From an uncultured Bacteroidales bacterium (lineage in GTDB: Bacteria; Bacteroidota; Bacteroidia; Bacteroidales; F082): DNA of 64,000 bases. The DNA lies in contig ONFF01000012.1 in NCBI GenBank assembly GCA_900317055.1, forward strand, positions 1 to 64,000, in the 5' to 3' direction. Every line of letters starts with the position of its first letter. The first letter of the stretch is position 1. Positions 18,038 through 33,663 of this stretch are shown piece after piece. A program made the position numbers and the translations under genes. Below the pieces are notes generated by a model that was given only the letters and a program-made list of their open reading frames with translations, ran no database searches and was not told the DNA's origin.

Positions 18038-18045
18038 AGAAGAAA

Positions 18046-19434
18046 ATGGCTGAAGATTTTTTCCAAGGATATTGGGGTGCCTCGCTTGAGGTGCTCAAGA
18101 AATACAACTGCCGCGTGTGGAGTCAGGCCGAGTGCCAGACCACGGGTGGCCTCTTCAAAGGCACAATCCTGCCTCGCGCCGCCTTCCAGGACGACCAGCA
18201 TATCGTGATGAAGGTGAACACGGGCTATAACATCGGTGTCGACATCAGCACCATCACGGGCATGGTCGAGACCGACTACAAGAAAGCCAACTACCACATC
18301 CCGGAGAAAGAATTTCCTTATACCGAAGGACTTCCGCATGTGAAACTGCTAGGCACGGGTGGCACCATCGCCTCGCGTCTGGACTACCGTACGGGTGCTG
18401 TGATCCCCGCCTTCTCGCCTGGTGAGTTGTATGGTGCCGTGCCGGAGCTGGCCGACATCTGCAACCTCGACACCGAGAAGGTGTTCGCCGTGTTCTCCGA
18501 GAACATGTCGCCCAAGGAATACATCGCCCTGGCCAAGAAGATTGGCGAGGAGATCCAAAACGGCATCGACGGCATCGTCATCGGCCACGGCACTGACACC
18601 TTGGCCCACACTGCCGCTGCTTTGACCTTCATGTGCCAGAACCTGCCTGTGCCGATTGTCTTGGTCGGCTCGCAGCGTTCATCGGACCGTCCGTCATCGG
18701 ACGCCGCCTTGAACCTGATGCATGCTATGACGGCTGCCGGTCACGGTGATGTGGCCGAGGTGATGGTCTGCATGTTTGGTCCCACCTCCGATGAGTACGG
18801 TTTCCTGCACCGTGGCACTCGTGTGCGTAAGATGCACTCGAGCTATCGCAGCACCTTCCGCACCATCGGTGATACTCCCGTTGCTACCGTCGACCGCAAG
18901 CGTGGCGTGGTGCCGATCAAGGAGGTCTACAACCACCGCCGCAACGACCGCGATGTGAAGATCATCCCGACCTTCGACGACCGCGTGGCCATCCTCTACT
19001 ACTATCCTGGCATGAAGCCCGATGTGCTTGATGCACTGGTCGACAACGGCTATCAAGGCATCGTGTGGGACGGCACGGGCTTGGGTCATGTCAACCGTGG
19101 CATGTTCGATGCCATCCAGCGTGCCACCGACAAGGGCGTGCATCAGTACATGACCGTGCAGACCATCTGGGGTTATGCCCACATGTTCGTCTATGACACC
19201 GGTCGTGACCTGATGGATAGAGGCATCATCCCCGCTGGCAACATGCTCGCCGAGACCGCCTACATCAAGTTGGGCTGGGCTTTGGGCCAAACGCACGACC
19301 GCGAAGAGGTGAAGAACATCATGCTCACTCCAGTCAACAGCGAAATCACCCCGAGAGAGCCTTACAACGGTTACTTGGTCTACCAAGGCGGAGTGCCCGA
19401 GGTGGAGGAGTTTATCCGTAAGGTGCATAAATAA
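18046..19434 (+). CDS. gatD: Glu-tRNA(Gln) amidotransferase subunit D (asparaginase-type)
   Basis: 462 residues. An N-terminal beta-barrel domain (about 1-95) precedes an L-asparaginase-like domain that releases ammonia from Gln or Asn for GatE. Catalytic motifs are LLGTGGTIASRLDYR (first Thr), IGHGTDTLAHTAAAL (second Thr with Asp) and RGTRVRKMHSSYRSTF (Lys). The N-terminal barrel and the pairing with gatE separate it from ordinary asparaginases. It lies 8 bp after gatE, probably in one transcript. GC-rich codon use matches gatE and the methylmalonyl decarboxylase genes, so it appears ameliorated rather than freshly acquired. Confidence 0.93.
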   Translation: MAEDFFQGYWGASLEVLKKYNCRVWSQAECQTTGGLFKGTILPRAAFQDDQHIVMKVNTGYNIGVDISTITGMVETDYKKANYHIPEKEFPYTEGLPHVKLLGTGGTIASRLDYRTGAVIPAFSPGELYGAVPELADICNLDTEKVFAVFSENMSPKEYIALAKKIGEEIQNGIDGIVIGHGTDTLAHTAAALTFMCQNLPVPIVLVGSQRSSDRPSSDAALNLMHAMTAAGHGDVAEVMVCMFGPTSDEYGFLHRGTRVRKMHSSYRSTFRTIGDTPVATVDRKRGVVPIKEVYNHRRNDRDVKIIPTFDDRVAILYYYPGMKPDVLDALVDNGYQGIVWDGTGLGHVNRGMFDAIQRATDKGVHQYMTVQTIWGYAHMFVYDTGRDLMDRGIIPAGNMLAETAYIKLGWALGQTHDREEVKNIMLTPVNSEITPREPYNGYLVYQGGVPEVEEFIRKVHK

Positions 19435-19493
19435 TATAAGGTGTCGACAATTCCAGCATTTGCTACTCATAATAAATAAATTATAATTAAACC

Positions 19494-21236
19494 ATGCCAT
19501 TTTCTGACTTTAAAACCCTGAAACGTCTGTTGAAATCAGACTTGAGTGCTCTGCCAGTGGTAAAAGTGTCTCTGTTAGGTGATACAGCAACGCAGTTTCT
19601 CGCTACAGCCATTCGAGGAACTGGTGTGGAGCGAGGTTATCATATTGACCTCTACGAGGCAGAATACGACCAAGTGGAAAGACAACTGCTTGACCCAACG
19701 AGTGAATTCTATGAGTTCAATGCAGACTTCATTATATTGTTTCAAAGTACGCACAAACTTGGCGAAAACCATGCGATGCTCAGCTCGGAACAACAGACCA
19801 CCTTGGCTGAGGACAGACTCAACTTCGTGGCCTCAGTATGTTCCAATCCTGCCCTCGAAGGCAAAAAGATCATCTATTTCAACTATCCTGAGATAGACGA
19901 TGCCGTGTTTGGAAGCTATGCCAACCATGTGCCACAATCGCTGACGTGGCAAGTGAGACGGCTGAATTGCGGACTGATGGATTTGACGCAACAGTACCCG
20001 AACCTCTTTATTTGCGATATTGCAGCGCTGCAAAACAAGTTGGGACGCGATGCCATGTTTGCCGCTAATGTTTACACCAGCACAGAGATGGTGTTGAGCA
20101 TGGATGTATTGCCTAATGTTGCGAGCCGAGTGATGGACATCATTTGTGCCGTAAAGGGGCAATTCAAGAAATGCCTCATTTTGGACCTTGACAACACGGT
20201 ATGGGGTGGCGTGATAGGCGACGATGGACTTGAAGGCATCCAGCTAGGTCATGGACTAGGCATTGGCAAGGCTTTCACTGAGTTCCAGATGTGGGTCAAG
20301 AAGCTCAAGCAGCGTGGCATTATCATTTGCGTAGCCTCGAAGAACAATGAAGAGACAGCAAAGGAACCTTTCGAAAAACACCCTGATATGGTGCTCAAGC
20401 TGGACGACATAGCTGTATTCCAAGCCAATTGGGAGACCAAAGTCGATAACATCCGTACCATTCAAAGCATTTTGAACATAAGTTTTGATAGCATGGTGTT
20501 CTTGGATGACAACCCATTCGAACGGAATATTGTACGCGAGAACATCAAAGGCATCACCGTACCCGAGTTACCCGAAGACCCTGCTGATTACTTGGAATAC
20601 CTGTATGGGCTGAATCTATTTGAAACTGCCAGCTACAGTTCTGCCGACAAAGACCGCACGAAGCAATATCAGGTAGAGGCTCAACGCGTGTCGCTGAGCA
20701 AGACTTTCACCAATGAGGCAGACTTTCTCAAGTCGTTGGACATGGTTTCTGTCGTTAGCGGTTTCACCAAATTCAACACACCCCGTGTCGCACAACTTAC
20801 CCAAAGGAGCAACCAGTTTAATTTGCGTACTGTCCGTTACACCGATGCCGACATCGAATCATTCGCATCGGATGCAGAAGTGATAGACTTGAGCTTCACC
20901 TTACAGGACAAGTTTGGCGACAATGGCTTGATCGCTGTCATCATCATGAAGCCGCAGGACAAAGAGACACTCTTTGTGGATACTTGGTTGATGAGCTGTA
21001 GGGTATTGAAACGTGGCGTTGAGAATTTCACTTTGAACACCATGGTGGAGATTGCCAAGTCAAAGGGATACAAGCGAATCATAGGAGAATACCTGCCAAC
21101 GCCTAAGAATGGCATGGTGGCGTTGCATTATCCAGAACTTGGTTTCACGCCGATAGAGGGTAGCCCAACTGCCCAATGGGTACTCGATTTGGAGAACTAT
21201 CAGCCCCGCGAGTGTTTTATTGTTGCCAATGAATAA
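19494..21236 (+). CDS. FkbH-like HAD-IIIC family protein
   Basis: 580 residues. The central HAD domain begins LILDLDNTVWGGVIGDDG (about residue 227) and continues with GIIICVASKNNEE and MVFLDDNPFERNIV, the FkbH/HAD-IIIC signatures. Residues 1-220 form an SGNH-like or other alpha/beta N-terminal domain often found with FkbH. The C-terminal 140 residues look GNAT-like (TLNTMVEIAKSKGYKRIIGE). Known FkbH proteins take 1,3-bisphosphoglycerate and place a glyceryl unit on an acyl carrier protein. Here an ACP gene lies 2.2 kb downstream in the same run, so a glyceryl-ACP product is a reasonable inference, unproven. First gene of the acylation locus. Confidence 0.85.
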   Translation: MPFSDFKTLKRLLKSDLSALPVVKVSLLGDTATQFLATAIRGTGVERGYHIDLYEAEYDQVERQLLDPTSEFYEFNADFIILFQSTHKLGENHAMLSSEQQTTLAEDRLNFVASVCSNPALEGKKIIYFNYPEIDDAVFGSYANHVPQSLTWQVRRLNCGLMDLTQQYPNLFICDIAALQNKLGRDAMFAANVYTSTEMVLSMDVLPNVASRVMDIICAVKGQFKKCLILDLDNTVWGGVIGDDGLEGIQLGHGLGIGKAFTEFQMWVKKLKQRGIIICVASKNNEETAKEPFEKHPDMVLKLDDIAVFQANWETKVDNIRTIQSILNISFDSMVFLDDNPFERNIVRENIKGITVPELPEDPADYLEYLYGLNLFETASYSSADKDRTKQYQVEAQRVSLSKTFTNEADFLKSLDMVSVVSGFTKFNTPRVAQLTQRSNQFNLRTVRYTDADIESFASDAEVIDLSFTLQDKFGDNGLIAVIIMKPQDKETLFVDTWLMSCRVLKRGVENFTLNTMVEIAKSKGYKRIIGEYLPTPKNGMVALHYPELGFTPIEGSPTAQWVLDLENYQPRECFIVANE

Positions 21237-21239
21237 GTT

Positions 21240-21662
21240 ATGACAATTGCCGAATTAGCAGAACAGACTGGAAAAATAGAGCACACTTATCAGGTGAGTC
21301 CTGAAGTCTACCACGCATTCCAATCATGCAGTGGCGACTTCAACCCGTTACACACCGATGTGGCTTTTGCCCAAAGCAAAGGCTTTAACGATTGTGTGAT
21401 GTACGGCAACATCTTGAATGCCTTTATCAGCCACTTTGTAGGGATGCTGCTTCCGACAAAAGAGGTGATGATTCAGAGCCAGGACATCAGTTTCCATAAG
21501 CCGGTGTTTCTGAATGACCAAATTGCCCTTGAGGCCACTGTAGATACCGTTTCCGAGGCTGTTGGGATCATCGAGTTTAAACTAAAATTCAGGCGCATAA
21601 GTGAAGGTGTAAAACCGGAACTTGTCGCCAAAGGCCATGTGCAGATAGGATTATTAAAATGA
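21240..21662 (+). CDS. MaoC-like hotdog-fold dehydratase/thioesterase
   Basis: 140 residues, one hotdog domain. The motif SGDFNPLHTDVAFAQSKGF contains the Asp-x4-His hydratase pair of R-hydratases (MaoC family), which act on acyl-CoA or acyl-ACP. It starts 3 bp after the FkbH-like stop and overlaps the transketolase gene by 4 bp (ATGA), so it is translationally coupled with both. In this setting it may dehydrate, or bind, the ACP-linked acyl group made by its neighbours; the substrate is unknown. Confidence 0.8.
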   Translation: MTIAELAEQTGKIEHTYQVSPEVYHAFQSCSGDFNPLHTDVAFAQSKGFNDCVMYGNILNAFISHFVGMLLPTKEVMIQSQDISFHKPVFLNDQIALEATVDTVSEAVGIIEFKLKFRRISEGVKPELVAKGHVQIGLLK

Positions 21663-22492
21663 TTGACAAAGAGTTAATAAATCAATTGGAGCAGCTTGCC
21701 AAAAAGATCCGGGTGGATATCATACGCACTGGATATTTGGCAGGCAAGAATGGTGCCCACTTTGGAGGTAGCCTCTCCCCTGTTGAGATATTGGCAGTGC
21801 TGTATTCCTGCTTTGTCTCTTTCGACAAAAACGATATGGAGCATCGTGACAGGGTTATCCTGAGCAAGGGTCACGCCGCTTTAGCACACTACTGCACTTT
21901 GTATGAATGTGGTATCATGACCAAAGCAGACCTCGACTCATTTGAACAGAACGGTAGTGATATAGTCGCTCATGCGAAACGAAACTTATCGAGAGGTTTG
22001 GATTTCTCTGGAGGCAGCCTAAGCCTTGGCACCTCATATTCCGTTGGCGTTGCCCATGCCTGCAAGCGCAAAGGTCTTGACAACCATATATATACCCTCA
22101 TCGGAGACGGTGAAATGAATGAAGGTCTGATCTGGGAAGCACTGATGTTTGCTGGACACAACCGTCTTGACAATCTCACCATCATTATAGACCACAATCA
22201 CCTTCAGGCTGATGGCACTATCGAGGAAGTGATGAACACCGCCCCGCTTGAAGACAAACTGAAAGCTTTTGGATTCGATGTTATTCAGGTAGATGGGCAT
22301 TCTGTGAGTGAGTTATACGAAGCTTTTAGTCAACAGCCAAATGGCCGTCCAATGGCCATCATAGCAGAAACAGTAAAGGGCAAAGGCGTTTCATTTATCG
22401 AAAACAAAGCCAAATGGCATCACAGCAGCCTAAACGAGGCCCGTTACCAGAAGGCGCTAAAAGATTTAGGAGAGGAGGTAGAGAATGGCTAA
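21659..22492 (+). CDS. Transketolase, N-terminal (ThDP-binding) subunit
   Basis: 277 residues, the size of stand-alone transketolase alpha subunits. The ThDP/Mg motif is GDGEMNEGLIWEALMFAGHN followed by LDNLTIIIDHN. Substrate-side residues appear in SKGHAALAHYC and GGSLSLGTSYSVG. With the next gene (overlap of 8 bp) it makes a heterodimeric transketolase that moves two-carbon ketol units. Split transketolases are sometimes recruited to special pathways. Here the setting between a MaoC-like gene and an ACP suggests it feeds the acylation locus rather than, or as well as, the pentose phosphate pathway. Confidence 0.9.
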   Translation: MIDKELINQLEQLAKKIRVDIIRTGYLAGKNGAHFGGSLSPVEILAVLYSCFVSFDKNDMEHRDRVILSKGHAALAHYCTLYECGIMTKADLDSFEQNGSDIVAHAKRNLSRGLDFSGGSLSLGTSYSVGVAHACKRKGLDNHIYTLIGDGEMNEGLIWEALMFAGHNRLDNLTIIIDHNHLQADGTIEEVMNTAPLEDKLKAFGFDVIQVDGHSVSELYEAFSQQPNGRPMAIIAETVKGKGVSFIENKAKWHHSSLNEARYQKALKDLGEEVENG

Positions 22493-23450
22493 TATGAATG
22501 TTCAACAATATGCTGGCTCCGGACAGGCAGCAGCCATATTTGGGATGTATTTGCCTGACCATATCGAGGAGTACCCCAATGTACAAGTGCTCTCCGCCGA
22601 TATGTCGGTAGCAGCCAGCCTTGACCGTTTTATTTATCAAAGCCCCGAAAAATTCACGGAATTAGGCATAGCCGAGCAAAACCTTGTGGGCATTTCTGCT
22701 GGCATGGCCTCAGAAGGCTATACATGTGTGGCTGTTGCCCAAGCCGCCTTCATTACTATGCGAGCCTACGAGATGGACCGCCAGTATTTAGGCTATATGC
22801 AAAACAAGGTTATCCTTGTCGGTTTGAATTCGGGCTTCTATCTCCAGTATTTTGGTAACACACACTACTGCATAGAAGACCTGGCCATCATGCGCCAGAT
22901 TCCTGGCATGACGGTTCTCTCCCCTGCCGATGCGGCTGAAGCCGTCATGGCCTTTGAGGCTGCCCTAAACTGCCCTGGTCCGGTTTACATCCGACTCACA
23001 GGGGGCTCGCAAGCTCCTACGGTTTATCATGAGACTTGCCCGTTTACCATTGGCAAAAACAATATTCTCCGTGAAAGTCAGGATGTCTGCCTTTTTACCA
23101 CAGGTGCTTGTACGGGCTACTCCGTCCAAGCCGTGGAAATCCTGTCTCAACAAGGCATAGAAACAAGGCTTGTGGATGTCCACACCTTGAAACCATTTGA
23201 CACCGAGTCTGTTAGAGAAGCCAAAAACTGCAAGTTGATAGTAACGGCTGAAGAGCACAACATAGTTGGCGGTCTTGGCACTACTATTGCAGACATCTTG
23301 GCTGAGGATGGAGGCTATCCACCACTCTTGAAATTGGGTGTCAAAGACCGTTTCTCCAAGCCTGGTGATTATGATTATGTGATGCATCAGCACAGGCTCT
23401 CGCCTAACCTGATTGCAGAAGACATTAAAAACAAATTACAATCATTATAA
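22485..23450 (+). CDS. Transketolase, C-terminal (pyrimidine-binding) subunit
   Basis: 321 residues. The catalytic Glu for ThDP activation is in FTELGIAEQNLVGISAGMAS. The domain continues with ADAAEAVMAFEAAL and a swivel domain (TRLVDVHTLKPFD, VTAEEHNIVGGLG). It completes the split transketolase together with the preceding gene. The start ATG at 22485 overlaps the upstream stop. The ACP gene follows after a 29-bp gap. Confidence 0.9.
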   Translation: MANMNVQQYAGSGQAAAIFGMYLPDHIEEYPNVQVLSADMSVAASLDRFIYQSPEKFTELGIAEQNLVGISAGMASEGYTCVAVAQAAFITMRAYEMDRQYLGYMQNKVILVGLNSGFYLQYFGNTHYCIEDLAIMRQIPGMTVLSPADAAEAVMAFEAALNCPGPVYIRLTGGSQAPTVYHETCPFTIGKNNILRESQDVCLFTTGACTGYSVQAVEILSQQGIETRLVDVHTLKPFDTESVREAKNCKLIVTAEEHNIVGGLGTTIADILAEDGGYPPLLKLGVKDRFSKPGDYDYVMHQHRLSPNLIAEDIKNKLQSL

Positions 23451-23479
23451 ATAATTAAGAATCAAAATATTAAATAGTT

Positions 23480-23722
23480 ATGGAAAGATCTGAAATTTAC
23501 GAAAAACTCAACGAAATCTTTTGTGATGTCCTGGACTTAGACGAAGTGCATCTCACTGATGCATCCGTTGCCGACGACATTGAGGAATGGGACTCCCTAA
23601 GTCATATCCAGTTGATTGTGGCTATTGAAAAAGCCTTTGGAATCAAATTCACTTCTCTTGAAATCATGAAGTGGAACAATGTGGGCGAGATGGTGAATTC
23701 AATCATTGCCAAAAAGCAATAA
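23480..23722 (+). CDS. Acyl carrier protein
   Basis: 80 residues. The phosphopantetheine site is Ser in EEWDSLSHIQLIVAIEKAFG, the DSL motif of carrier proteins, with helix II following. The acidic surface suits docking to partner enzymes. It lies between the transketolase pair and the first MBOAT gene (3-bp gap to 23726), the same gene logic as DltC next to DltB. It is therefore probably a dedicated carrier of the group transferred by the MBOATs rather than the fatty-acid ACP. Confidence 0.9.
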   Translation: MERSEIYEKLNEIFCDVLDLDEVHLTDASVADDIEEWDSLSHIQLIVAIEKAFGIKFTSLEIMKWNNVGEMVNSIIAKKQ

Positions 23723-23725
23723 TCG

Positions 23726-25195
23726 ATGGTTATCAACTCTTTTAGGTTCTTAGCCTTTTTTGCAGTAGTCTTCTTGGTTTATTTCCTACCGTGGATGCGA
23801 CAGCGTCACACACGGCAGAATTTATGGCTATTGCTTGCCAGCTATTTCTTCTATGGCTTTGTGGATTGGAAGATGCTTCCTATCCTATTGGCTATAACGG
23901 TGGCATTTTGGTTTTTGGGTGGATTCATTCGCAAGGCCATTGACCGCGGCAATGCAAAAGCTGCTTCACGCTTCACCACATTAGGTGTCGTGTTGGGCAT
24001 AGGGCTCTTGTTCTACTTCAAATACCTGAACTTCTTTGCTGGTTCTTTTGCCAAGCTTCTTAATGCCGTTGGGCTGCATGTCAGTTGGTCCACGCTGAAT
24101 ATTGTTCTTCCTGTTGGTGTGAGCTTTTTCACTTTCAAGCTTATCAGCTATGTGATTGAAATCCATCGTGAGAAGATACAGCCCAGCGAGAACTTCCTGG
24201 AGTTTGCCACTTACGTTGCCTTCTTCCCCACCATCATGGCTGGTCCTATCGACCGTCCCGGAAAGTTTCTTCCCCAGTTGCACCAAGCTCGCCAATTCAA
24301 CTACAACTTGGCCATGGACGGCTGCCAGCAGATACTTTGGGGTATCTTCACAAAGATGGTCATTGCCGACAGTATAGCAGTTATTACGCATGGCGCTTGG
24401 TCACTTTATCCTGAAAAAACCTCTTGGTACCTGATTTATGCCGCCTTATTGTCGCCGATACAAGTCTACGCCGATTTTGACGGCTATTCCAACATGGCCA
24501 TTGGCGTGGGCAAGATTTTGGGTTTCAACATCACCAAGAACTTTGACCATCCTCTATTAGCGCGTAATGTGTCGGAATACTGGCGTCGTTGGCACATCTC
24601 CCTAACTGGTTGGATCACGGACTATGTGTTCATGCCGCTCAATGTCAGATTCCGCAATTGGGGTAATTTGGGTATTTTCCTTGCCATCAGTATCAATCTT
24701 GTGGTGATTGGCATGTGGCACGGGGCCAATTGGACCTATGTATTGTTCGGAGTATACCACAGTCTGCTTTTCTTGCCTCTCATACTCAGTGGAAAGTTTG
24801 GGAAGAACAAAAAACTCAAACCAGGCCGATGGGGTTGCATACAGTTTAAAGACTTATTGGGGATGATTGGGACCCATTTCCTGATGGCTTTTGGTCATAT
24901 TATCATCTTTTCTGCAGGAGTGCCGTCTATTATCCGACTTTTCTCTTGTATGATTAAGGGAGACTGGTCTTTCGTCAATCCTTTCTCATTGCTTTCGTGG
25001 TATTCCATCTTAGCTATTGTGGTACTGTTGGTCCTGGAATGGTTTACCAGAAACAAAGAATTTGCCATACAACGCGAGTCTAAAGATTACACGAACAAGA
25101 CCTTTAGGATCGTTTTCCTCGACATGTTACTGGCTTTGGCCATTGTAATATTTAGTGCTAGTGCTAACGCAGAGTTTGTTTATTTCCAATTCTAA
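23726..25195 (+). CDS. MBOAT O-acyltransferase 1 (AlgI/DltB-like)
   Basis: 489 residues with about ten or more membrane helices. The signature regions are SEYWRRWHISLTGWITDYVF and the invariant His of GMWHGANWTYVLFG. It moves an acyl group from a cytoplasmic donor through the membrane to a periplasmic partner. Clearly the most divergent of the four MBOATs here (MPLNVRFRNWG where the others have IPLGGSRVSKA). It sits next to the ACP gene and ends YFQF like the others; the membrane-anchored SGNH-like gene begins immediately after (25200). Confidence 0.92.
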   Translation: MVINSFRFLAFFAVVFLVYFLPWMRQRHTRQNLWLLLASYFFYGFVDWKMLPILLAITVAFWFLGGFIRKAIDRGNAKAASRFTTLGVVLGIGLLFYFKYLNFFAGSFAKLLNAVGLHVSWSTLNIVLPVGVSFFTFKLISYVIEIHREKIQPSENFLEFATYVAFFPTIMAGPIDRPGKFLPQLHQARQFNYNLAMDGCQQILWGIFTKMVIADSIAVITHGAWSLYPEKTSWYLIYAALLSPIQVYADFDGYSNMAIGVGKILGFNITKNFDHPLLARNVSEYWRRWHISLTGWITDYVFMPLNVRFRNWGNLGIFLAISINLVVIGMWHGANWTYVLFGVYHSLLFLPLILSGKFGKNKKLKPGRWGCIQFKDLLGMIGTHFLMAFGHIIIFSAGVPSIIRLFSCMIKGDWSFVNPFSLLSWYSILAIVVLLVLEWFTRNKEFAIQRESKDYTNKTFRIVFLDMLLALAIVIFSASANAEFVYFQF

Positions 25196-25199
25196 TTCA

Positions 25200-26141
25200 A
25201 TGTCTATGAAAAGGTTTTTAAAGCTTTTTTGTTTATTCTTGCTGTTTTTTATCTTGACGATTGGCTGTATCCGAATGACTTGGATTCTTTTAACCCCGTC
25301 TTTCATGGAAAGGAATGTCCTCGACAAGGATATCCATACAATCGTCTTAGGCGGATCCGTTGGAATGTCAGATTGGAATGATAGCATTATCCCAGGTTCG
25401 AAGAATCTCTGTGCTTCTGCAATGACTTTTGGCGGAGCGCTTAACAATCTGAAATGGGCAACTGAATATAACGAACATAAGCCTGATACTGTCATCCTCA
25501 CTGCTGGTTTGTTGTCGTTGGTCTATTTTTATGACGAAGTGGATATGCGTATGGTACTCTTAAATTGGTCAGAAGAAAAAAGAAATTTGCTGACCTATCC
25601 TGTTTTTTTTGATAACTATAAGCACCTTAAGGATTATTGGGAATACATACTTGTTTCTTTTCCTTATAAGTACTTTGATGCATACAAAGGCATTGAAGGA
25701 GGTTATGTTCCCGATGATGGTAATGAAATCAATAATCCCATTGCCTTAAATCATATCAACTTAGTAATTGAACGTGCAAAGGAATATGACGGTCAAGGCT
25801 TATTATCCGAAGAGTATCTTAAGACCCATTTCACATATCAGCTCAACAATCTTCGTAAGATAAAAGAGTATTGTGACGCCCATCAACAAACACTTATTAT
25901 TTTAAACACCCCATTGTACAAAATACAAGACATGGTGAGTGATAAAGGATATCGACAGTTGATATGTTCGGAGTTAGGAGATAGTACACTCGTTGCTGAA
26001 TACACCCGCTTCGAAGTCCCTGATTCAACCTACTATAGGGATTTGGAGCATTTAAATACCAAAGGAGCTTTGTATTTTGGCGAACATATTGTAAGAGATG
26101 GATTACAATTGCAGTATGCAATAGACTATTGCAAGAATTAG
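25200..26141 (+). CDS. Membrane-anchored SGNH-like protein 1 (MBOAT partner)
   Basis: About 313 residues (ATG at 25200 or 25206). One N-terminal membrane helix (FLKLFCLFLLFFILTIGCI) puts the rest in the periplasm. SGNH-like blocks are seen: IVLGGSVGMSDWN (block I, GGS) and DLEHLNTKGALYFG near the C terminus (Asp-x-x-His). This resembles DltD/AlgJ-type partners that take the acyl group from an MBOAT and pass it to a glycan. AT-rich relative to the MBOAT gene. Assigned by topology and context; sequence similarity to named families is weak. Confidence 0.65.
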   Translation: MSMKRFLKLFCLFLLFFILTIGCIRMTWILLTPSFMERNVLDKDIHTIVLGGSVGMSDWNDSIIPGSKNLCASAMTFGGALNNLKWATEYNEHKPDTVILTAGLLSLVYFYDEVDMRMVLLNWSEEKRNLLTYPVFFDNYKHLKDYWEYILVSFPYKYFDAYKGIEGGYVPDDGNEINNPIALNHINLVIERAKEYDGQGLLSEEYLKTHFTYQLNNLRKIKEYCDAHQQTLIILNTPLYKIQDMVSDKGYRQLICSELGDSTLVAEYTRFEVPDSTYYRDLEHLNTKGALYFGEHIVRDGLQLQYAIDYCKN

Positions 26142-26142
26142 T

Positions 26143-26174
26143 TTTGTATGATAACGGATTTTTGCCTATTTTTG
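26143..26174 (+). promoter_or_regulatory. Promoter before MBOAT 2
   Basis: A -33 TTTG (26143-26146) and a -7 TATTTTTG (26167-26174) are separated by exactly 20 bp, a strong Bacteroidota-type match. It would let the cassettes from 26229 onward be expressed apart from the FkbH-to-SGNH1 genes. Confidence 0.75.
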
Positions 26175-26228
26175 CAGCCGAATTCACTCGAAATCTTAAT
26201 AATAGATACAATTGTCAATTGTGAATAA

Positions 26229-27701
26229 ATGCTGTTCAACTCCATCCAATTCGCAATATTCCTGCCGATAGTCTTCCTGCTCTATTGGTTTGTCTTTGAC
26301 AGCTTTATCAAAAAGTCGAAGAACCAGTTGCGCTTGCAGAACGCTTTCGTGGTGATGGCCAGCTATGTTTTCTATGGCTGGTGGGACTGGCGTTTCCTCC
26401 TGCTCATTGCCTTCACCTCCTTCTGCTCGTGGGGCAGCGGGTTGCTGATAGCGAAAGCTGAGACCAGAAAAAAAGCCAAGACTTGGATGTGGCTGAACAT
26501 CGTCCTCAACCTCGGCATCCTGGCTCTCTTCAAGTACTACGACTTCTTCGCCTCCGAGTTCGCCGAACTATTCAATGTCTCCACGGTTGGCTTGTTGCTG
26601 AAAGTGATACTTCCCGTTGGCATCTCGTTTTACACCTTCCAAGCCCTATCCTACTCCATCGACATTTACCGAGGCAAGATTGAGCCGACCAAGGACATAG
26701 TGGCCTTCTTCGCCTTCATCTCATTCTTCCCCCAACTGGTGGCCGGACCTATCGAGAGAGCGACCAACCTTTTGCCGCAATTCCTGAAGAAGCGCGAATT
26801 CGATTACGACAACGCAATTGACGGCATGCGCCAGATATTGTGGGGCCTCTTCAAGAAAATCGTGGTGGCGGACAACTGCGCGGTGTTTGTCGACCATGTG
26901 TTCTCAAACTACACAAACGAAACCGGAAGCACTTTGCTTCTTGCCGCCATCTTCTTCACCTTCCAAATCTACGGCGACTTCTCGGGCTATAGCGACATCG
27001 CCATCGGAACGGCCAAACTGTTCGGCATCAAGCTGATGCGCAACTTCAATGTGCCATATTTCAGCAGGGACATCGCCGAATTCTGGCGCCGTTGGCACAT
27101 CTCGCTGACAACATGGTTCCGCGACTATGTGTACATCCCACTGGGTGGAAGCCGTGTATCCAAGGCAAAGGTCGTCAGAAACACTTTCATCATCTTCCTT
27201 GTGAGCGGCTTCTGGCATGGCGCCAACTGGACCTTCATCGCATGGGGAGCCTACCATGCTTTCCTGTTCCTGCCACTGATATTGACCGGCAAGAACCGCA
27301 AATACACCAACCAAGTGGCTGAAGGAAGACGGCTGCCAACATTAAAGGAAACAGGACAGATGCTTTTGACATTCTTCTTGGCGGTGATGGGGTGGATCAT
27401 CTTCAGAGCGGAAAGCATCGGACAGGCTTGGGAGTATGTTCGCGGAATGTTGCAATTCGGCACCTTGCGGGCATGTTATCGGTTCTTTACCTTGCCAGAA
27501 ATAAGACTAACAAGTTTGTTCGTTGTGATTATGCTAGTTATTGAGTGGTTGCAACGGGATAAACAACATGGATTTGAAGGGATAGAAAAATTGTATCTCC
27601 TTCATAATAAATATCTTAGACCTATATTATACGCTTTATTGTTGCTCTTGATGATGGTTTTCGGAGGGAAGCATGCATCCTTTATCTATTTTCAATTCTA
27701 A
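26229..27701 (+). CDS. MBOAT O-acyltransferase 2
   Basis: 490 residues. AEFWRRWHISLTTWFRDYVY and GFWHGANWTFIAWGAYHA are the MBOAT signatures including the catalytic His; GWIIFRAES is the conserved late motif. Residues 1 to about 400 are roughly nine-tenths identical by eye to MBOATs 3 and 4, whereas the last 85 or so residues (from about 27460) differ and are AT-rich. Preceded by a strong promoter and followed after 12 bp by an SGNH-like partner. Likely membrane acyl channel for a surface glycan. Confidence 0.92.
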   Translation: MLFNSIQFAIFLPIVFLLYWFVFDSFIKKSKNQLRLQNAFVVMASYVFYGWWDWRFLLLIAFTSFCSWGSGLLIAKAETRKKAKTWMWLNIVLNLGILALFKYYDFFASEFAELFNVSTVGLLLKVILPVGISFYTFQALSYSIDIYRGKIEPTKDIVAFFAFISFFPQLVAGPIERATNLLPQFLKKREFDYDNAIDGMRQILWGLFKKIVVADNCAVFVDHVFSNYTNETGSTLLLAAIFFTFQIYGDFSGYSDIAIGTAKLFGIKLMRNFNVPYFSRDIAEFWRRWHISLTTWFRDYVYIPLGGSRVSKAKVVRNTFIIFLVSGFWHGANWTFIAWGAYHAFLFLPLILTGKNRKYTNQVAEGRRLPTLKETGQMLLTFFLAVMGWIIFRAESIGQAWEYVRGMLQFGTLRACYRFFTLPEIRLTSLFVVIMLVIEWLQRDKQHGFEGIEKLYLLHNKYLRPILYALLLLLMMVFGGKHASFIYFQF

Positions 27702-27713
27702 AATGGAAATACT

Positions 27714-28622
27714 ATGAAACGGTTTCTTTGGGCTATTGTTATAGGAGGTATTGCTTTTTTTGTGTTATGTGGAGCTGTGGAGTTCTACCAATCACGAGTT
27801 GACAACAATTATTCCTACAAGTATTGGTATATGGAAAACCATCGTCATGAAGTGGTAACTTTGCTTCTGGGAGACTCATATATAGAGAATGCCATTAACC
27901 CAGGTTTGATGGGAAAAGGAACATTTAATTTGGCCAGGTCTTCCCGCTGGATTTATTATGACGACAAATTGCTGGAAAAGTATATTGCTGACATGCCCAA
28001 TTTAAAGCAGGTGATCTTGGGAATGGGCTATAAGCCCCCGTATTTTAAATCGTATCATTATCCTGAATCAGAAAGTAATGAGCCAGAAATGAATGAGCAT
28101 GAAAAGTATATGTACGAGAAATTCATGCATATTCGATATGATGACAATTCAAACCATTGGTTAGGACTGTATAGAGGCTATATTGACCCCGGCACACTGA
28201 TTGGCAATAATCTTTTATGTGATTCATTAGGCTATGAACGTGTCGATGGCCAGTCTGTTAATTGGCGATTGGAACACAATGTAGATTCAAATGTGTTTCA
28301 CCAAAAATATGCCAAAGAACAAGTAGCAGAATACACTGGCTATTTAAAAGACATGGCAAGATTGTGTCATCTTCATAAGGTTCGTTTTATAGTCATCACC
28401 CCCCCCTGCCATGATTCATACATTGTTAATGTCAGGCAGGAAGGTCTTGACATAATACATGGAATAATCGAGAATGTCCGTTCTGAGTATCCCATAGAAT
28501 ATATTGATTATTTGCAAGATGAAGAATATCGTGCTGATTCAATTTATCGTAATTGTTCCCACCTGAATTCCATAGGTGCCGATATATTCGCTCTGCGTGT
28601 GAAAAAAGATTTTGGTTTATAA
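27714..28622 (+). CDS. Membrane-anchored SGNH-like protein 2
   Basis: 302 residues with an N-terminal membrane helix (FLWAIVIGGIAFFVLCGAV). Block I is LLLGDSYIENAINP, a true GDS. The C-terminal block is NCSHLNSIGADIF, with Asn at the usual Asp position three residues before His. Little similarity to the other SGNH partners apart from these blocks. AT-rich. The stop overlaps or abuts the start area of MBOAT 3 (28624). Role as acceptor-side acyltransferase inferred from pairing. Confidence 0.65.
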   Translation: MKRFLWAIVIGGIAFFVLCGAVEFYQSRVDNNYSYKYWYMENHRHEVVTLLLGDSYIENAINPGLMGKGTFNLARSSRWIYYDDKLLEKYIADMPNLKQVILGMGYKPPYFKSYHYPESESNEPEMNEHEKYMYEKFMHIRYDDNSNHWLGLYRGYIDPGTLIGNNLLCDSLGYERVDGQSVNWRLEHNVDSNVFHQKYAKEQVAEYTGYLKDMARLCHLHKVRFIVITPPCHDSYIVNVRQEGLDIIHGIIENVRSEYPIEYIDYLQDEEYRADSIYRNCSHLNSIGADIFALRVKKDFGL

Positions 28623-28623
28623 T

Positions 28624-30075
28624 ATGCGTTTCAATTCCATCCAATTTGCAATATTTCTGCCAATAGTCTTCCTGCTCTATTGGTTTGTGTTCGACCGCTT
28701 CATCAGCAAATCGAAGTGGCAGTTGCGCTTACAAAACGCCTTCATTGTTGTGGTCAGCTATATTTTTTATGGCTGGTGGGACTGGCGATTCTTGCTACTC
28801 ATTGCCTTCACCTCGTTTTGTTCATGGGGTAGCGGGTTGCTCATAGGAAAAGCAAAAACCAAGAAAAAGGCCAAGACATGGATGTGGCTGAACATCGTCC
28901 TCAACCTGGGCATATTGGCTCTTTTCAAATACTACGACTTCTTTGCTACAGAGTTCGCCGAACTATTCAACCTCTCCACAGATGGTTTATTATTAAGGAT
29001 CATCCTCCCAGTAGGTATTTCGTTCTACACCTTCCAAGCCTTGAGTTATTCAATAGACATTAATAATGGCAAGATTGAGCCGACCAAGGACATTGTAGCC
29101 TTCTTTGCGTTTATATCGTTCTTTCCTCAATTGGTGGCTGGCCCCATCGAAAGGGCGACAAACTTGTTGCCGCAATTCCTAAAGAAGCGCAAGTTCGACT
29201 ACGACACCGCCATTGACGGCACGAGGCAAATACTTTGGGGTCTGTTCAAAAAAATTGTGGTGGCCGACAACTGCGCGACATTTGTCGATCAGGTGTTTTC
29301 TACTTACCCGGAACAAAGTGGAAGCACCCTGTTTCTTGCCGCTGTCTTATTCTCTTTCCAGATTTACGGTGACTTCTCGGGCTATTCCGACATCGCCATA
29401 GGTACAGCAAAACTGTTCGGAATCAAGTTGATGCGAAATTTCAATGTCCCATACTTCAGCCGTGACATCGCTGAGTTTTGGCGCAGATGGCATATCAGTC
29501 TGACGACCTGGTTTCGCGACTATGTCTACTTCCCCATGGGTGGTAGCCGCGTCTCAAAGGCCAAAATCGTAAGAAACACCTTCGTCATCTTCCTTGTGAG
29601 CGGATTTTGGCATGGTGCCAACTGGACCTATATCGCATGGGGAGCATATCATGCCATCCTTTTCCTACCATTGATACTCTTAGGGAAGAATCGAAAGTAC
29701 CGTAACATCGTGGCGGAGGACCGTTTCCTGCCTACCATTAAAGAATGCTTTCAGATGATGCTGACCTTCTTACTCGTCGTATTAGGCCGTGTTCTTTCCC
29801 GATCTAGAAGCATCGGTCAGGCTTGGGAGTATTTTTGCGGGATGTGCAATGAGAGTCTTTTCACCAAGCCTTTTTTGTATGCTGGCACGAAAAGGACAAT
29901 GCTGCTAATCGCAGTGATGCTTATTATTGAGTGGATTACAAGGCGAAAAGAGCATGCCTTACAATATGGCCCTAAAATTCCATCTTGGTTGGCTTGGATT
30001 TTTAGTGCGGCGATAGTATTGATTATTTTAGAGTACGGTGGCAATAGCCAGTCATTCATATATTTCCAGTTCTAA
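28624..30075 (+). CDS. MBOAT O-acyltransferase 3
   Basis: 483 residues from ATG 28624 (MRFNSIQFAIFLP); an upstream TTG at 28612 would overlap the previous gene and is not needed. The core is nearly the same as MBOATs 2 and 4, with WRRWHISLTTWFRDYVYFPM and GFWHGANWTYIAWG. The usual GWIIFRAES motif is replaced by GRVLSRSRS (29785-29811), a cluster of changes at a strongly conserved place, while downstream helices and the YFQF end are intact. It may therefore be impaired or altered. It uses IDINNGKIEP where the others have IxxYRGKIEP. Confidence 0.9.
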   Translation: MRFNSIQFAIFLPIVFLLYWFVFDRFISKSKWQLRLQNAFIVVVSYIFYGWWDWRFLLLIAFTSFCSWGSGLLIGKAKTKKKAKTWMWLNIVLNLGILALFKYYDFFATEFAELFNLSTDGLLLRIILPVGISFYTFQALSYSIDINNGKIEPTKDIVAFFAFISFFPQLVAGPIERATNLLPQFLKKRKFDYDTAIDGTRQILWGLFKKIVVADNCATFVDQVFSTYPEQSGSTLFLAAVLFSFQIYGDFSGYSDIAIGTAKLFGIKLMRNFNVPYFSRDIAEFWRRWHISLTTWFRDYVYFPMGGSRVSKAKIVRNTFVIFLVSGFWHGANWTYIAWGAYHAILFLPLILLGKNRKYRNIVAEDRFLPTIKECFQMMLTFLLVVLGRVLSRSRSIGQAWEYFCGMCNESLFTKPFLYAGTKRTMLLIAVMLIIEWITRRKEHALQYGPKIPSWLAWIFSAAIVLIILEYGGNSQSFIYFQF

Positions 30076-30077
30076 CG

Positions 30078-31082
30078 ATGAAAAGGTATTTAATCAAAAT
30101 ATTACTCTTTATTGGTCTTCCAATACTTGTTTTGTTGGCTGTGTATTACATTACCGATCCGTTTAAGACATTGCGTCCCTTTAGTTTACAATACTTTGAT
30201 GACACCAATCGGGACTATCTTTCAACGGAATTGTTTTTGCGGAACGATTCGGTGTATCACTACAATTCTTTCATTTTTGGAAGCTCCAGATGCTGTGGCT
30301 TCAATACATACCATTGGAAACATTACCTTCCGGAGGGGTCTAGGCAGTTTATGTTTCAAGCCTGGGGAGAAACCTTAACGGGCATTGAGCAGAAAATCGA
30401 TTACATAGACCATAATGGAAATGAAATCAAAAATGCATTAGTGTTGTTCGACATTCCTGGCACTTTTGCAAAAGAGCAATTACCGAAATCCGTTGTGAAA
30501 ATAAAGGATTATAAGTTTTCAGGACAATCAAAACTAGCCTATCACTCTAATCTGTTTTACCAATTTTCCCAAAAACCATCTAAATGGATTTCTTCTGTAA
30601 TACAGTTCAGTAGCCATACGACGAAAGAGTTCCCTGTTGATTCTGTCAGTAATGATTGGGGAACAAAAATGAAAAATATTGACATAAGCCGTCAACCTAA
30701 AAAAGATAGTCTGTCAAATTGCACTGCCAAATCCAAAACTATTTTTCTGAAACAGATTGAACATAAAACAGACGATGACATACTAGAAAGCGAGCCTTTG
30801 ATAAACGAAGAGTTTTATAAGCAATTGACTCATATCAAAGATGTTTTCGACAAACATCATACTGATTATAGAATTGTGATTTCACCTGCTTATTGTTATA
30901 CACATCCTACGATAAATGCTGATGATTTGACAATTCTTCAGGAAATATTTGGGAAAGACAAGGTGTTTAATTATTCGGGAAAGAATGATATGACAACAGA
31001 TTGCTATAGCTATTCAGATCCCAATCACTTTGGATTAAGCGTGGGATGGCATATCATTGAAGATATTTATAACAAACAATAA
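30078..31082 (+). CDS. Membrane-anchored SGNH-like protein 3
   Basis: 334 residues. N-terminal membrane helix (IKILLFIGLPILVLLAVYYI). Block I is FIFGSSRCCGFNTYHW (GSS) and the C-terminal block is YSDPNHFGLSVG with Asp-x-x-His, so the catalytic Ser and His/Asp appear complete. It starts 2 bp after MBOAT 3 and is markedly AT-rich. No clear similarity to the other three partners outside the blocks. Function inferred from pairing. Confidence 0.62.
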   Translation: MKRYLIKILLFIGLPILVLLAVYYITDPFKTLRPFSLQYFDDTNRDYLSTELFLRNDSVYHYNSFIFGSSRCCGFNTYHWKHYLPEGSRQFMFQAWGETLTGIEQKIDYIDHNGNEIKNALVLFDIPGTFAKEQLPKSVVKIKDYKFSGQSKLAYHSNLFYQFSQKPSKWISSVIQFSSHTTKEFPVDSVSNDWGTKMKNIDISRQPKKDSLSNCTAKSKTIFLKQIEHKTDDDILESEPLINEEFYKQLTHIKDVFDKHHTDYRIVISPAYCYTHPTINADDLTILQEIFGKDKVFNYSGKNDMTTDCYSYSDPNHFGLSVGWHIIEDIYNKQ

Positions 31083-31105
31083 CACAAAAACATCATTAGG
31101 CCTGT

Positions 31106-32554
31106 ATGCTCTTCAACTCCCTCCAATTCGCGATATTTCTGCCGATAGTCTTCCTGCTCTATTGGTTCGTTTTCGACCGCTTCATCAGCAAGTCGAAGTG
31201 GCAGTTGCGATTGCAAAACGCCTTCGTCGTGGTGGCAAGTTATGTGTTCTACGGTTGGTGGGACTGGCGTTTTTTGCTGTTGATTGCTTTTACCTCTTTC
31301 TGCTCGTGGGGCAGCGGAATACTCATCGGGAAGGCCGAATCGAAGAAAAAAGCCAAAACCTGGATGTGGATAAACATTGTGCTCAACCTTGGCATTCTGG
31401 CTCTTTTCAAGTACTACGACTTCTTCGTCTCAGAGTTTGCCGAGCTGTTCCATATCTCTACTGATGGCTTGTTGCTGAAAGTGATACTCCCAGTAGGCAT
31501 CTCCTTCTACACCTTTCAAGCCTTATCCTACTCAATTGATGTCTATCGGGGCAAGATTGAACCGACAAAGGACATCGTGGCTTTCTTCGCATTCATTTCG
31601 TTCTTCCCTCAACTGGTGGCCGGCCCTATCGAGCGCGCGACGAACCTCTTGCCGCAATTCCTGAAAAAGCGCGAATTCAATTACGACAACGCTGTTGACG
31701 GAATGCGACAGATACTTTGGGGCCTGTTCAAGAAGATTGTGGTGGCCGACAACTGCGCGGTGTATGTCGACCAGGTGTTCTCGACCTATACGGGGCAAAG
31801 TGGAAGCACTTTGCTCCTTGCAGCCATATTCTTCACTTTCCAGATTTACGGTGATTTCTCAGGCTATAGTGACATCGCAATAGGAACGGCAAAGCTGTTC
31901 GGTATCAAGCTTATGCGTAACTTCAATGTGCCGTATTTCAGCCGAGACATCGCAGAGTTTTGGCGCAGGTGGCACATCTCGCTCACGACATGGTTCCGCG
32001 ACTATGTCTACATCCCTTTGGGCGGAAGCCGTGTATCAAAGGCGAAGGTTGTCAGGAACACATTCATCATCTTCCTTGTGAGCGGCTTCTGGCATGGTGC
32101 CAATTGGACCTTCATCGCTTGGGGAGCATATCATGCCATCCTTTTCTTGCCGTTGATTTTGACTGGCAAGAACCGCAAATACACGAACCAAGTGGCTGAA
32201 GGAAGATGGCTGCCTTCGCTCAAAGAGGTTGGGCAAATGCTTCTGACTTTCTTCTTGGCGGTGATAGGGTGGATCATCTTCAGGGCAGAAACTATTGGAC
32301 AGACTTGGGAGTATATCTGCGGAATTTGTAATCGTAGTCTATTCACTATTCCGGCAGCGAAAGGTTTTTCCGCATTGGGGTTAAACATCCTTCTATTGAT
32401 TATTGTGGAATGGATTCAGCGCGACAAGTCGTTTATTTTGGATTTGTCCTCAATCAAAAAAGGCTATTTGAGGTGGACGGCTTATCTCGCCTTGTTGTTT
32501 GTCTTGTTTGCCTTTGGAGGTCATGCTACCAATTTCATTTATTTCCAATTCTGA
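31106..32554 (+). CDS. MBOAT O-acyltransferase 4
   Basis: 482 residues. Same core as MBOATs 2 and 3 (about 30 differences from MBOAT 2 in the first 400 residues by eye), with WRRWHISLTTWFRDYVYIPL, the His of GFWHGANWTFIAWG and an intact GWIIFRAET. The C-terminal 80 residues (from about 32310) are unique to this copy. Ends YFQF. SGNH-like partner 4 follows after 3 bp. Confidence 0.92.
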   Translation: MLFNSLQFAIFLPIVFLLYWFVFDRFISKSKWQLRLQNAFVVVASYVFYGWWDWRFLLLIAFTSFCSWGSGILIGKAESKKKAKTWMWINIVLNLGILALFKYYDFFVSEFAELFHISTDGLLLKVILPVGISFYTFQALSYSIDVYRGKIEPTKDIVAFFAFISFFPQLVAGPIERATNLLPQFLKKREFNYDNAVDGMRQILWGLFKKIVVADNCAVYVDQVFSTYTGQSGSTLLLAAIFFTFQIYGDFSGYSDIAIGTAKLFGIKLMRNFNVPYFSRDIAEFWRRWHISLTTWFRDYVYIPLGGSRVSKAKVVRNTFIIFLVSGFWHGANWTFIAWGAYHAILFLPLILTGKNRKYTNQVAEGRWLPSLKEVGQMLLTFFLAVIGWIIFRAETIGQTWEYICGICNRSLFTIPAAKGFSALGLNILLLIIVEWIQRDKSFILDLSSIKKGYLRWTAYLALLFVLFAFGGHATNFIYFQF

Positions 32555-32557
32555 GTT

Positions 32558-33511
32558 ATGCGTAAGTTCATTATTAAGTCTTTGTGTCTCGGATTGTTAG
32601 TTTTATCTTTTGCGATTGCATTAGACTATATGATAAGCATGGGACTTCGTCGGACTGATTGTTATAGGTATCAGGTATTTAATGATATTTTCAAAGACAA
32701 TTTGGACTATGATATGCTCTTTATGGGTAATTCGAGAAGCTTTATGCATTTCAACCCACGGATTATCGATTCCATTTGTCATGTTAATTCATACAATTTG
32801 GGATTGGGAGGCTATGCCATTAAAACACAAATATCTGAATATCATTGCTATAAAGCGCATAATGGAACTCCAAAAACAATCGTTCAACAAGTTGATTTTA
32901 TGACTCTGAACATGGAAGAAGACATCAGACACCAACACGATTCTGAACGCTTTTTCCCGACTGTTTATGATAAGACCATGCGCGGAGAATTGAAACAACT
33001 TGGTTACGGCTTTTGGGAATTGTACTGCCCGTTGTATAGGTACAATGGTTATCAAAAAGTAATCAAAGACGGTCTATTAGAGTATTTGGGAATAAAGCAT
33101 TATGTTGAAAAGCCTGCATATAAAGGCTATAGACCAAAAAAAGGATTATGGAATGGGAAAAACGTGGCTTCGATGGATTCAATTAACTCATTGATGAATG
33201 AAAAGGCGATCGCTTTGTTTGAAGGATACCTTGACGAGTGCAAAAATGATGGTGTATATGTGTTGCTGGTCAACTCCCCAGTTTATTCACAAACCACAAA
33301 AAAAGTGAAAGATTTGGATAAGCTAAACCACTATTTTGATAGCATTGCCCAAAAATATGGATTTAAGTATTTGAATTATACCGAAAACTACCCTTTGTGT
33401 GACGACACTTTGAATTTTTGCGTTTCGGTTCACATGAATTCAGTGGCAGCAGATAGGTTTTCAACAGATTTTGCGAACGATCTCATTTCTCTTGGTTTAA
33501 TATCCAAGTAA
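32558..33511 (+). CDS. Membrane-anchored SGNH-like protein 4
   Basis: 317 residues with an N-terminal helix (LCLGLLVLSFAIALDYMI). Block I is LFMGNSRSFMHFNP (GNS); the C-terminal block is CVSVHMNSVAADRF, where His is kept but the Asp three residues before is Val or Ser. Last gene of the acylation locus; the next gene has its own promoter. AT-rich like the other partners. Function inferred from pairing with MBOAT 4. Confidence 0.6.
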   Translation: MRKFIIKSLCLGLLVLSFAIALDYMISMGLRRTDCYRYQVFNDIFKDNLDYDMLFMGNSRSFMHFNPRIIDSICHVNSYNLGLGGYAIKTQISEYHCYKAHNGTPKTIVQQVDFMTLNMEEDIRHQHDSERFFPTVYDKTMRGELKQLGYGFWELYCPLYRYNGYQKVIKDGLLEYLGIKHYVEKPAYKGYRPKKGLWNGKNVASMDSINSLMNEKAIALFEGYLDECKNDGVYVLLVNSPVYSQTTKKVKDLDKLNHYFDSIAQKYGFKYLNYTENYPLCDDTLNFCVSVHMNSVAADRFSTDFANDLISLGLISK

Positions 33512-33581
33512 GTTTAATAGTAGTCTCGTTTCGCTGCTTTATTGACGACAAAAATTAATTAGGTCGAGGCCAAACATTTCC

Positions 33582-33613: not shown

Positions 33614-33663
33614 CACCGATTTAATAAATACGTATTTTTTAACAATAAATTATTCGAATAATT

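Follow-up and report, generated by a model that had tools for sequence, protein, structure and literature searches.

A predicted FkbH-fed MBOAT/SGNH acylation locus with a split transketolase-like enzyme at a variable genomic site in an uncultured Bacteroidales bacterium

The first 64,000 nucleotides of contig ONFF01000012.1, from an uncultured Bacteroidales bacterium of the F082 lineage (assembly GCA_900317055.1; genome of 3.53 Mb with 10 MBOAT genes), are referred to here as the window. They contain a group of 13 genes on one strand (19494–33511) coding for an FkbH-like protein, a MaoC-like protein, the two halves of a split transketolase-like enzyme (TK; halves TKN and TKC), an acyl carrier protein (ACP), and four pairs each consisting of a membrane-bound O-acyltransferase (MBOAT) and an SGNH-like protein. 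The first seven of these genes, from FkbH to SGNH-like partner 1, probably form a donor and transfer line that supplies a small hydroxyacyl group and attaches it as an ester to an extracytoplasmic glycan. The genes and their borders are as follows.

16091–19434, plus strand: gatE and gatD, archaeal-type Glu-tRNA(Gln) amidotransferase (Pfam/NCBIfam); left border of the variable site, outside the system
19494–21236, plus strand: FkbH-like HAD protein (FkbH_N and HAD-IIIC FkbH domain), predicted glyceryl-ACP synthase (PF21211, TIGR01686)
21240–21662, plus strand: MaoC-like dehydratase (PF01575; Asp33/His38 present)
21659–22492, plus strand: TKN, N-terminal half of a split transketolase-like thiamine diphosphate (ThDP) enzyme (PF00456)
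22485–23450, plus strand: TKC, C-terminal half of the same enzyme (PF02779/PF02780; residue table, tree)
23480–23722, plus strand: ACP with a WDSL site (PF00550)
23726–25195, plus strand: MBOAT 1, the ACP-linked one, with a C-terminal FVYFQF shuttle motif (PF03062, tree, motif)
25200–26141, plus strand: SGNH-like partner 1 (open frame from 25155), with an N-terminal helix and GGSV ... DLEHLN (invariant Gly, Ser and His; weak model)
26229–27701, plus strand: MBOAT 2, FIYFQF end, carrier-less clade (Pfam, tree, motif)
27714–28622, plus strand: SGNH-like partner 2 (partner alignment)
28612–30075, plus strand: MBOAT 3, FIYFQF end, carrier-less clade; pair 3 is missing from the sister locus L220 (tree, motif)
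30078–31082, plus strand: SGNH-like partner 3 (partner alignment)
31106–32554, plus strand: MBOAT 4, FIYFQF end, carrier-less clade; matches solved DltB (tree, motif, structure match)
32558–33511, plus strand: SGNH-like partner 4, SGNH fold in the model (partner alignment, predicted structure)
33664–34080, plus strand: methylmalonyl-CoA epimerase (TIGR03081, 155.8 bits, above cut-off); right border of the variable site, outside the system

The FkbH-like protein scores 285 bits with PF21211 and 288.1 bits with TIGR01686 (cut-off 146.65), has a PDB relative (3slr) and contains the DLDNT motif; D231, D233 and T235 are invariant among 20 aligned orthologs, the window's included. FkbH proteins take glycerate from 1,3-bisphosphoglycerate and load it on an ACP. 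In the MaoC-like protein D33, N35, P36, L37 and H38 are invariant among seven aligned sequences, and Asp33 and His38 are presumably catalytic as in R-hydratases. W37, D38 and S39 of the ACP are invariant among 18 aligned sequences, and the ACP gene ends 3 bp before MBOAT 1. Similar proteins are coded in a Bacteroidaceae bin (L115) and Prevotella bins (L117 and L118), with 80–81% identity for FkbH (L115 and L117) and 72–74% for MaoC (all three).

A scan of named species genomes for FkbH yielded 591 confirmed stretches, of which the best 80 were kept; one (L182) was dropped as no FkbH frame was picked, leaving 79 loci, and the frequencies given here therefore apply to close FkbH orthologs. Counts are for 6 kb around FkbH on either strand unless stated, with ACP counts including tblastn matches. 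Gene calls are the longest non-overlapping frames, which may pass over small genes and overlapped ones, as happened with TKN of L122, recovered by tblastn. Related loci with interchangeable tailoring enzymes are present in Bacteroidota and, by the labels of database records that are mostly metagenome bins, in several other phyla. Genes for ACP are found in 75 of the 79, MBOAT in 60, short-chain dehydrogenase/reductase (SDR) in 29, MaoC in 27, VOC proteins in 21, methyltransferases in 12, and TK in five; on the same strand as FkbH, and from frames only, the numbers are 56 for ACP and 55 for MBOAT. A sequence-only reading of this DNA had described the gene set and likened it to a carrier protein, MBOAT and SGNH plan, and both the set and, from these counts, the plan hold up.

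The combination of TK with FkbH, MaoC and ACP recurs in the five TK-bearing named loci, those of Hoylesella marshii (L122), a Treponema bin (L133), a Desulfovibrio bin (L183), a Verrucomicrobiota bin (L184) and a Clostridia bin (L192), and in one locus of the same order (L043). Within the order, FkbH orthologs occur in 27 of 393 genomes, the window's included, at E≤1e-60; at the 20 best other places (19 genomes) MaoC is present in six and the TK pair only in L043 (55 and 57% identical). With six such recurrences, TK as a chance neighbour can be set aside. An MBOAT lies within 6 kb in four of the five named TK loci, the exception being L122, and in five of six with L043. In L122 (9950–18384) the order is FkbH-MaoC-TKN-TKC-SDR-ACP. 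Behind the ACP come genes for an acyltransferase of the AT3 family (PF01757, 73 bits against a cut-off of 31), a protein of the polysaccharide flippase type (PF13440) and a glycosyltransferase of family 2, so that in this named species a donor set of the TK type is linked with surface polysaccharide. The AT3 gene suggests, from its position, that the membrane step may be taken by another acyltransferase family.

Six FkbH-ACP loci (L146, L148, L149, L157, L164 and L177) also code for a small VOC protein and for a protein of 300 residues that resembles methyltransferases, with an MBOAT nearby in five of the six; perhaps these make O-methylglyceryl groups, in line with what is proposed for suomilide, or acyl groups that are epimerised.

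All four window MBOATs have the WHG histidine and the C-terminal FxYxxF end, which are present in 97 and 93, respectively, of 97 MBOAT frames of at least 430 residues. They score 169–174 bits with the NCBIfam DltB equivalog TIGR04091, below its cut-off of 375. In a tree of 97 sequences (quick method, SH-aLRT support only; frames below 430 residues left out, as were L041, L042 and L045, taken as the same contigs as L121, L123 and L131), MBOAT 1 belongs to a clade of 44 (SH-aLRT 100) containing 15 ACP-adjacent and 18 ACP-near sequences, 10 from FkbH loci and itself, and none of the 13 carrier-less MBOATs. MBOATs 2–4 fall in a clade of 15 with 11 carrier-less sequences and one ACP-near sequence (from L100, whose ACP-like frame lies on the opposite strand). 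Among the 22 sequences of the group that is parent to this clade are one from L057 and the second MBOATs of some FkbH loci in Chryseobacterium, Flavobacterium and Winogradskyella, and MBOATs of the 2–4 type may for this reason use an ACP. The host genome has a second possible ACP-MBOAT-SGNH run (L208, G000:C25:160000-176000, 5233–8860), with a weak ACP match (25 bits), a 332-residue frame, an MBOAT 58% identical to MBOAT 4, and an SGNH-like protein.

MBOATs 2–4 are 78–84% identical to one another and their SGNH-like partners 20–25%, which fits a constant transfer step and a variable acceptor. The partners have no Pfam match; three residues (Gly, Ser and His) are the only invariant ones among 35 of them (the four in the window and 31 from related loci). 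The model of partner 4 is predicted to have an SGNH fold and matches DltD, and that of partner 1 is weak, with no Foldseek match at E≤0.001. Iterated searches of 54 frames longer than 230 residues and close behind MBOAT frames in the named loci gather 48 from partner 4 and 46 from partner 2, and none from partners 1 and 3 as single starts.

The system is situated between gatD and the epimerase gene, and this gap (19434–33664) varies in the genus, holding MBOAT/SGNH pairs, other genes, or nothing. GatD is 96–100% identical in 34 other genomes among 60 of the genus (the window's included), with different genes following gatD; these 34 places were read from gatD onwards, and G500, with a 55-residue GatD fragment, was left out. 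The epimerase or next gene directly follows gatD in eight (L083, L087, L088, L092, L096, L099, L102 and L106), ten have MBOAT frames and no FkbH (L090, L093, L095, L098, L100, L103, L104, L105 with fragments, L107 and L109), one has FkbH (L082, cut by a contig end), and the remaining 15 have other genes, other orders or contig ends. A hairpin and T-run follow gatD in several of the empty sites; none was seen by eye in the window. The G+C content in 2-kb bins is 0.41–0.47 across the locus, against 0.57 in the gatE bin and 0.56 in the one after it, although it says little on its own because other window bins are as low as 0.43.

FkbH matches at E≤1e-60 are present in eight of 99 genus genomes. 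Full-length FkbH at 97% identity or above is found in three (the window, G463 and G535, the latter two at 97–98%), a 78% match over part in G516, and matches of 35–40% in four. The locus in the sister genome G535 has pairs 1, 2 and 4, with identities of 97% for FkbH, 98% for MaoC, 99% for TKN, 97% for TKC, 100% for ACP, 97% for MBOAT 1, 84% for SGNH 1, 89 and 86% for pair 2, and 95 and 88% for pair 4. It lacks pair 3, which therefore comes and goes as a unit at a variable site. In G516 (L221) a shortened FkbH frame stands alone (79% over 260 residues, no ACP or MBOAT match in 17 kb) and is likely a remnant.

The sequence-only reading had all four pairs served by one ACP, and this is not supported, because MBOATs 2–4 group with same-genus carrier-less MBOATs, many of them from the same gatD-epimerase site, and MBOAT 1 alone is in the ACP-linked clade. 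A version in which the pairs share one ACP-bound donor and differ in acceptor is doubtful. It would account for the head-to-tail arrangement of the pairs on one strand and for similar MBOATs with divergent partners, and second MBOATs of the parent group do occur in FkbH loci (L144, L145, L146, L150, L157 and L193); it fits poorly with the 11 carrier-less loci among the 15 members of the MBOAT 2–4 clade, the ten gatD sites with MBOAT frames but no FkbH, and the absence of pair 3 in G535. The reading preferred here is that of one ACP-fed line through MBOAT 1, with pairs 2–4 as separate MBOAT/SGNH acylation pairs gathered at the same variable site and probably using acyl-CoA donors.

The tailoring genes between FkbH and the ACP are exchanged as modules. 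The SDRs form separate clades, of which the main one accompanies MaoC and another accompanies TK. Among the 27 MaoC loci, 19 have a main-clade SDR, two a Clostridium-type SDR, five TK and one (L178) neither; a main-clade SDR and TK occur together in none of the 79 loci, and MaoC is present at each of the five named loci with TK (P 0.0036 by a hypergeometric test that takes no account of phylogeny). The order FkbH-MaoC-SDR-ACP-MBOAT in L115 and L117 corresponds to FkbH-MaoC-TKN-TKC-ACP-MBOAT in the window. MaoCs of the TK loci do not form one group on a tree with few supported forks. Since TK and the main-clade SDR are mutually exclusive beside MaoC and TK occupies the SDR position, the two enzymes would act on the same MaoC product.

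The best PDB match of TKN is 6yak, a split transketolase. By equivalence with Escherichia coli TktA, whose numbering is used throughout, the window TK retains the ThDP-binding and activating residues H26, H66, D155, N185, H261, E411 and H473, and its branch also retains H100. In contrast, R358, S385, H461 and R520, which we take from transketolase structures to bind the phosphosugar, and D469, presumably an acceptor residue, are replaced by A, A, N, G and F (D469 by F). In a tree of 43 C-terminal halves, for which the program warned of long branches, the window TK falls in a clade of 12 (98/92 support) with L122, L043, the FkbH-less loci L202–L206 and, as the next branch, four TKs of distant phyla. 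All 12 lack H461, D469 and R520 and have E411 and H473; among 30 other split TKs (29 family matches and the host's own at C12) H461 and R520 are present in all 30 and D469 in 27. The four distant-phylum TKs have Glu at H100, and two of them also Asn at D155. The host genome has another split TK at C12, with different residues at these positions, and a one-piece TK at C32, and an ordinary housekeeping role for the window TK can be rejected. A clade of ThDP enzymes with no phosphosugar pocket, positioned beside ACPs, points by its residues and neighbours to a putative carboligation chemistry.

Among the FkbH-less TK loci, of which L204 is cut by a contig end, an SDR is present in four of five, an ACP lies within 1 kb of TK in three (L202, L203 and L206) and about 3.6 kb away in L205, a Pfam-tested AMP-ligase occurs in L202, L203, L205 and L206, and LuxE/LuxC in L202–L205. 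L202 also holds a Pfam-tested KASIII-type protein. In L206 there is also an ACP-MBOAT-SGNH run and, two genes before the SDR-TK genes, a protein of the FdtA type (347 bits). Conservation of TK and ACP apart from MBOATs had been named beforehand as telling against the sequence-only reading, and it is found in part: L202, L203 and L205 have TK and ACP with no MBOAT in view, but these come with AMP-ligase and LuxE/LuxC genes and no FkbH. An aldehyde plus C2 chemistry is possible for the five clusters.

The gene set, motifs, clades, module exchange and loss of TK residues are read from the DNA itself, and the steps beyond the loading of glyceryl-ACP are drawn by analogy or inference. FkbH would take glycerate from 1,3-bisphosphoglycerate and load it on the ACP, as its family does, and the acyl group is likely glyceryl-derived. 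MaoC may dehydrate glyceryl-ACP to the enol of pyruvyl-ACP, a step we regard as tentative, with the balance tipping away from it. In most MaoC-bearing relatives the SDR would reduce pyruvyl-ACP to lactyl-ACP, an idea that follows the loading module of bryostatin BryA. In the window the split ThDP enzyme stands in place of the SDR and would meet the same ACP-bound intermediate, most simply to add a two-carbon unit to its keto group; that the enzyme acts on an ACP-bound acyl group at all comes close to an even call, and action of this particular kind is speculative. By analogy with PatA/PatB and Dlt, MBOAT 1 would then take the acyl group from the ACP and hold it outside on the Tyr of its own C-terminal FVYFQF, and from there the group would pass to the Ser of SGNH 1 and on to a surface glycan. 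This relay from ACP through MBOAT 1 to SGNH 1 is very probable. At its boldest, and with low confidence, the proposal is that the split TK is a new ThDP carboligase adding C2 to the pyruvyl-ACP made by FkbH and MaoC, that an MBOAT/SGNH pair supplied by the carrier protein attaches a branched C5 hydroxyacid as an ester to a surface glycan, and that FkbH-ACP loci with membrane acyltransferases are a modular family writing sugar-derived acids (glyceryl, lactyl, O-methylglyceryl and C5).

The sequence-only reading had TK simply supplying a C2 hydroxyacyl group, a view weakened because the phosphosugar-binding residues are gone, the ThDP residues notwithstanding. In one rival reading TK would load glycolyl from a ketose on the ACP in the manner of NapB/NapD with the ACP NapC, the ester would be glycolyl, and FkbH would be a second donor or an auxiliary. 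We consider this improbable: the equivalents of R358, S385, H461 and R520 are all lost, NapD carries a lipoyl domain and neither TK half has a lipoyl match (Pfam, E≤0.001), and FkbH and MaoC are left with no role although MaoC is present in five of five TK loci. On the other side are the ThDP residues, the H100 equivalent in the window branch, and the plan itself, since a two-component TK working with an ACP on a C2 unit is described in the available portion of PMC7570522.

Equally unlikely is a role for the TK pair in building a branched or extended sugar of the acceptor glycan, with the acyl group coming from FkbH, MaoC and ACP only. ThDP carboligases that branch nucleotide sugars are known (YerE, AviB1/B2), an FdtA-type protein is near the SDR-TK genes in L206, and L122 lies among polysaccharide genes. 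However, a Pfam scan of the 13 genes finds none for nucleotide sugars and no glycosyltransferase, the FkbH-less TKs of L202, L203, L205 and L206 are near an ACP, and TK occupies the place of an acyl-ACP-reductase-like SDR.

Several points weigh against the acylation line as a whole or in its parts. The scheme is known here from genes, and no MBOAT lies within 6 kb of FkbH in 19 of the 79 loci, some of them short contigs. The substrate of MaoC could be a different acyl-ACP. L159 has a main-clade SDR with no called MaoC, and L178 has MaoC with neither SDR nor TK. MBOATs 2–4 could use the ACP in trans, and the contrast between MBOAT clades is sampled from one genus because all carrier-less sequences come from the window's genus. 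As for the ThDP enzyme, its clade extends to FkbH-less loci beside AMP-ligases and LuxE/LuxC, where an aldehyde acceptor like that of AziC5/C6 is a better fit than a thioester with a keto group; the TK pairs of L043 and L122 come with an SDR of their own, from another clade, which is missing here; and of the five named loci with TK, four are contigs from metagenome bins of distant phyla, whose TKs may do other chemistry, as they form a separate branch with Glu for H100. It is very unlikely that the surface genes gathered at this variable site are silent or in decay: full-length FkbH is rare in the genus and only a shortened frame is left in G516, but all window frames are open with catalytic residues present, FkbH is 97–98% identical in G463 and G535, and in G535 the ACP is 100% and the TK halves are 97–99% identical.

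Around the locus, GatD (TIGR02153, 497 bits, above cut-off) and GatE (TIGR00134, 380 bits, above cut-off; NF003107, 433 bits, below its cut-off of 456) are of archaeal type in a Bacteroidales genome. GatD at 93% identity or above is present in 36 of the 60 genus genomes, one a fragment, and many of the others are incomplete genomes. An APH-family phosphotransferase gene (38311–39222, minus strand) lies beside decarboxylase genes. Rfam and tRNA scans of the window give no matches; promoter-like matches number 41 (27.9 expected) and terminator-like matches 10 (13.0 expected), counts that say little about the locus.

The Dlt system (DltA, DltC, DltB, DltX and DltD) shares with the locus a carrier protein, an MBOAT and a membrane-anchored SGNH protein, and MBOAT 4 matches solved DltB. 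It differs in that FkbH stands in place of the DltA ligase, with no AMP-binding match (Pfam scan) among the 13 genes, and the shuttle motif is fused to the MBOAT, whereas DltX is separate. The carrier adjoins MBOAT 1 and is known as PP-binding, not as DltC-type. PatA/PatB and other MBOAT-SGNH O-acetylation pairs have the C-terminal FxYxxF, the WHG histidine and an SGNH partner with Ser and His (the fold being modelled here for partner 4 only), but no dedicated ACP and loading enzyme such as the locus has. The part of PMC12148441 that was available shows the acyl-Tyr shuttle for PatA/PatB and describes other MBOAT/SGNH pathways with no DltC-like carrier protein. A carrier protein together with an MBOAT bearing a fused shuttle motif differs from both the Dlt and the Pat/Alg types.

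Polyketide and tetronate pathways using glyceryl-ACP also pair FkbH with a stand-alone ACP (PMC7489565, in part); here the ACP is beside a membrane acyltransferase, in the window or its relatives with MaoC, SDR, TK, VOC or methyltransferase genes, and there is no polyketide synthase gene among the 13. The suomilide and aeruginosin clusters combine FkbH-loaded, O-methylated glycerate with an MBOAT; in the portions available of PMC13122637 and PMC10143770 the glycerate enters a peptide, the suomilide MBOAT is proposed to acylate the sugar or ring of the product, and an ACP-to-MBOAT-to-SGNH line is not described. Two-gene TKs act on secondary-metabolite intermediates in the available parts of PMC7570522 and PMC9570651, which cover the NapB/NapD homologues DinU/DinS with an ACP and azinomycin AziC5/C6 with an aldehyde, and, in PMC7570522, NapB/NapD with the ACP NapC in naphthyridinomycin. 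The locus TK differs from these in having neither a lipoyl match nor phosphosugar residues and in being found with FkbH and MaoC. A literature search, with most subscription journals outside its reach, found no account of FkbH feeding an MBOAT/SGNH line, the nearest being the suomilide cluster.

The locus may be a new form of MBOAT/SGNH envelope acylation that perhaps includes a new enzyme. Among the systems surveyed, the MBOAT/SGNH lines described carry acetyl from CoA or D-alanine from DltC. If the reading is correct, an FkbH-loaded ACP line would add small sugar acids to the alphabet of the cell surface, and its interchangeable tailoring genes would make it possible to predict the acyl group from the genes present. 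The gatD-epimerase site would offer a way into the study of surface variation within one genus.

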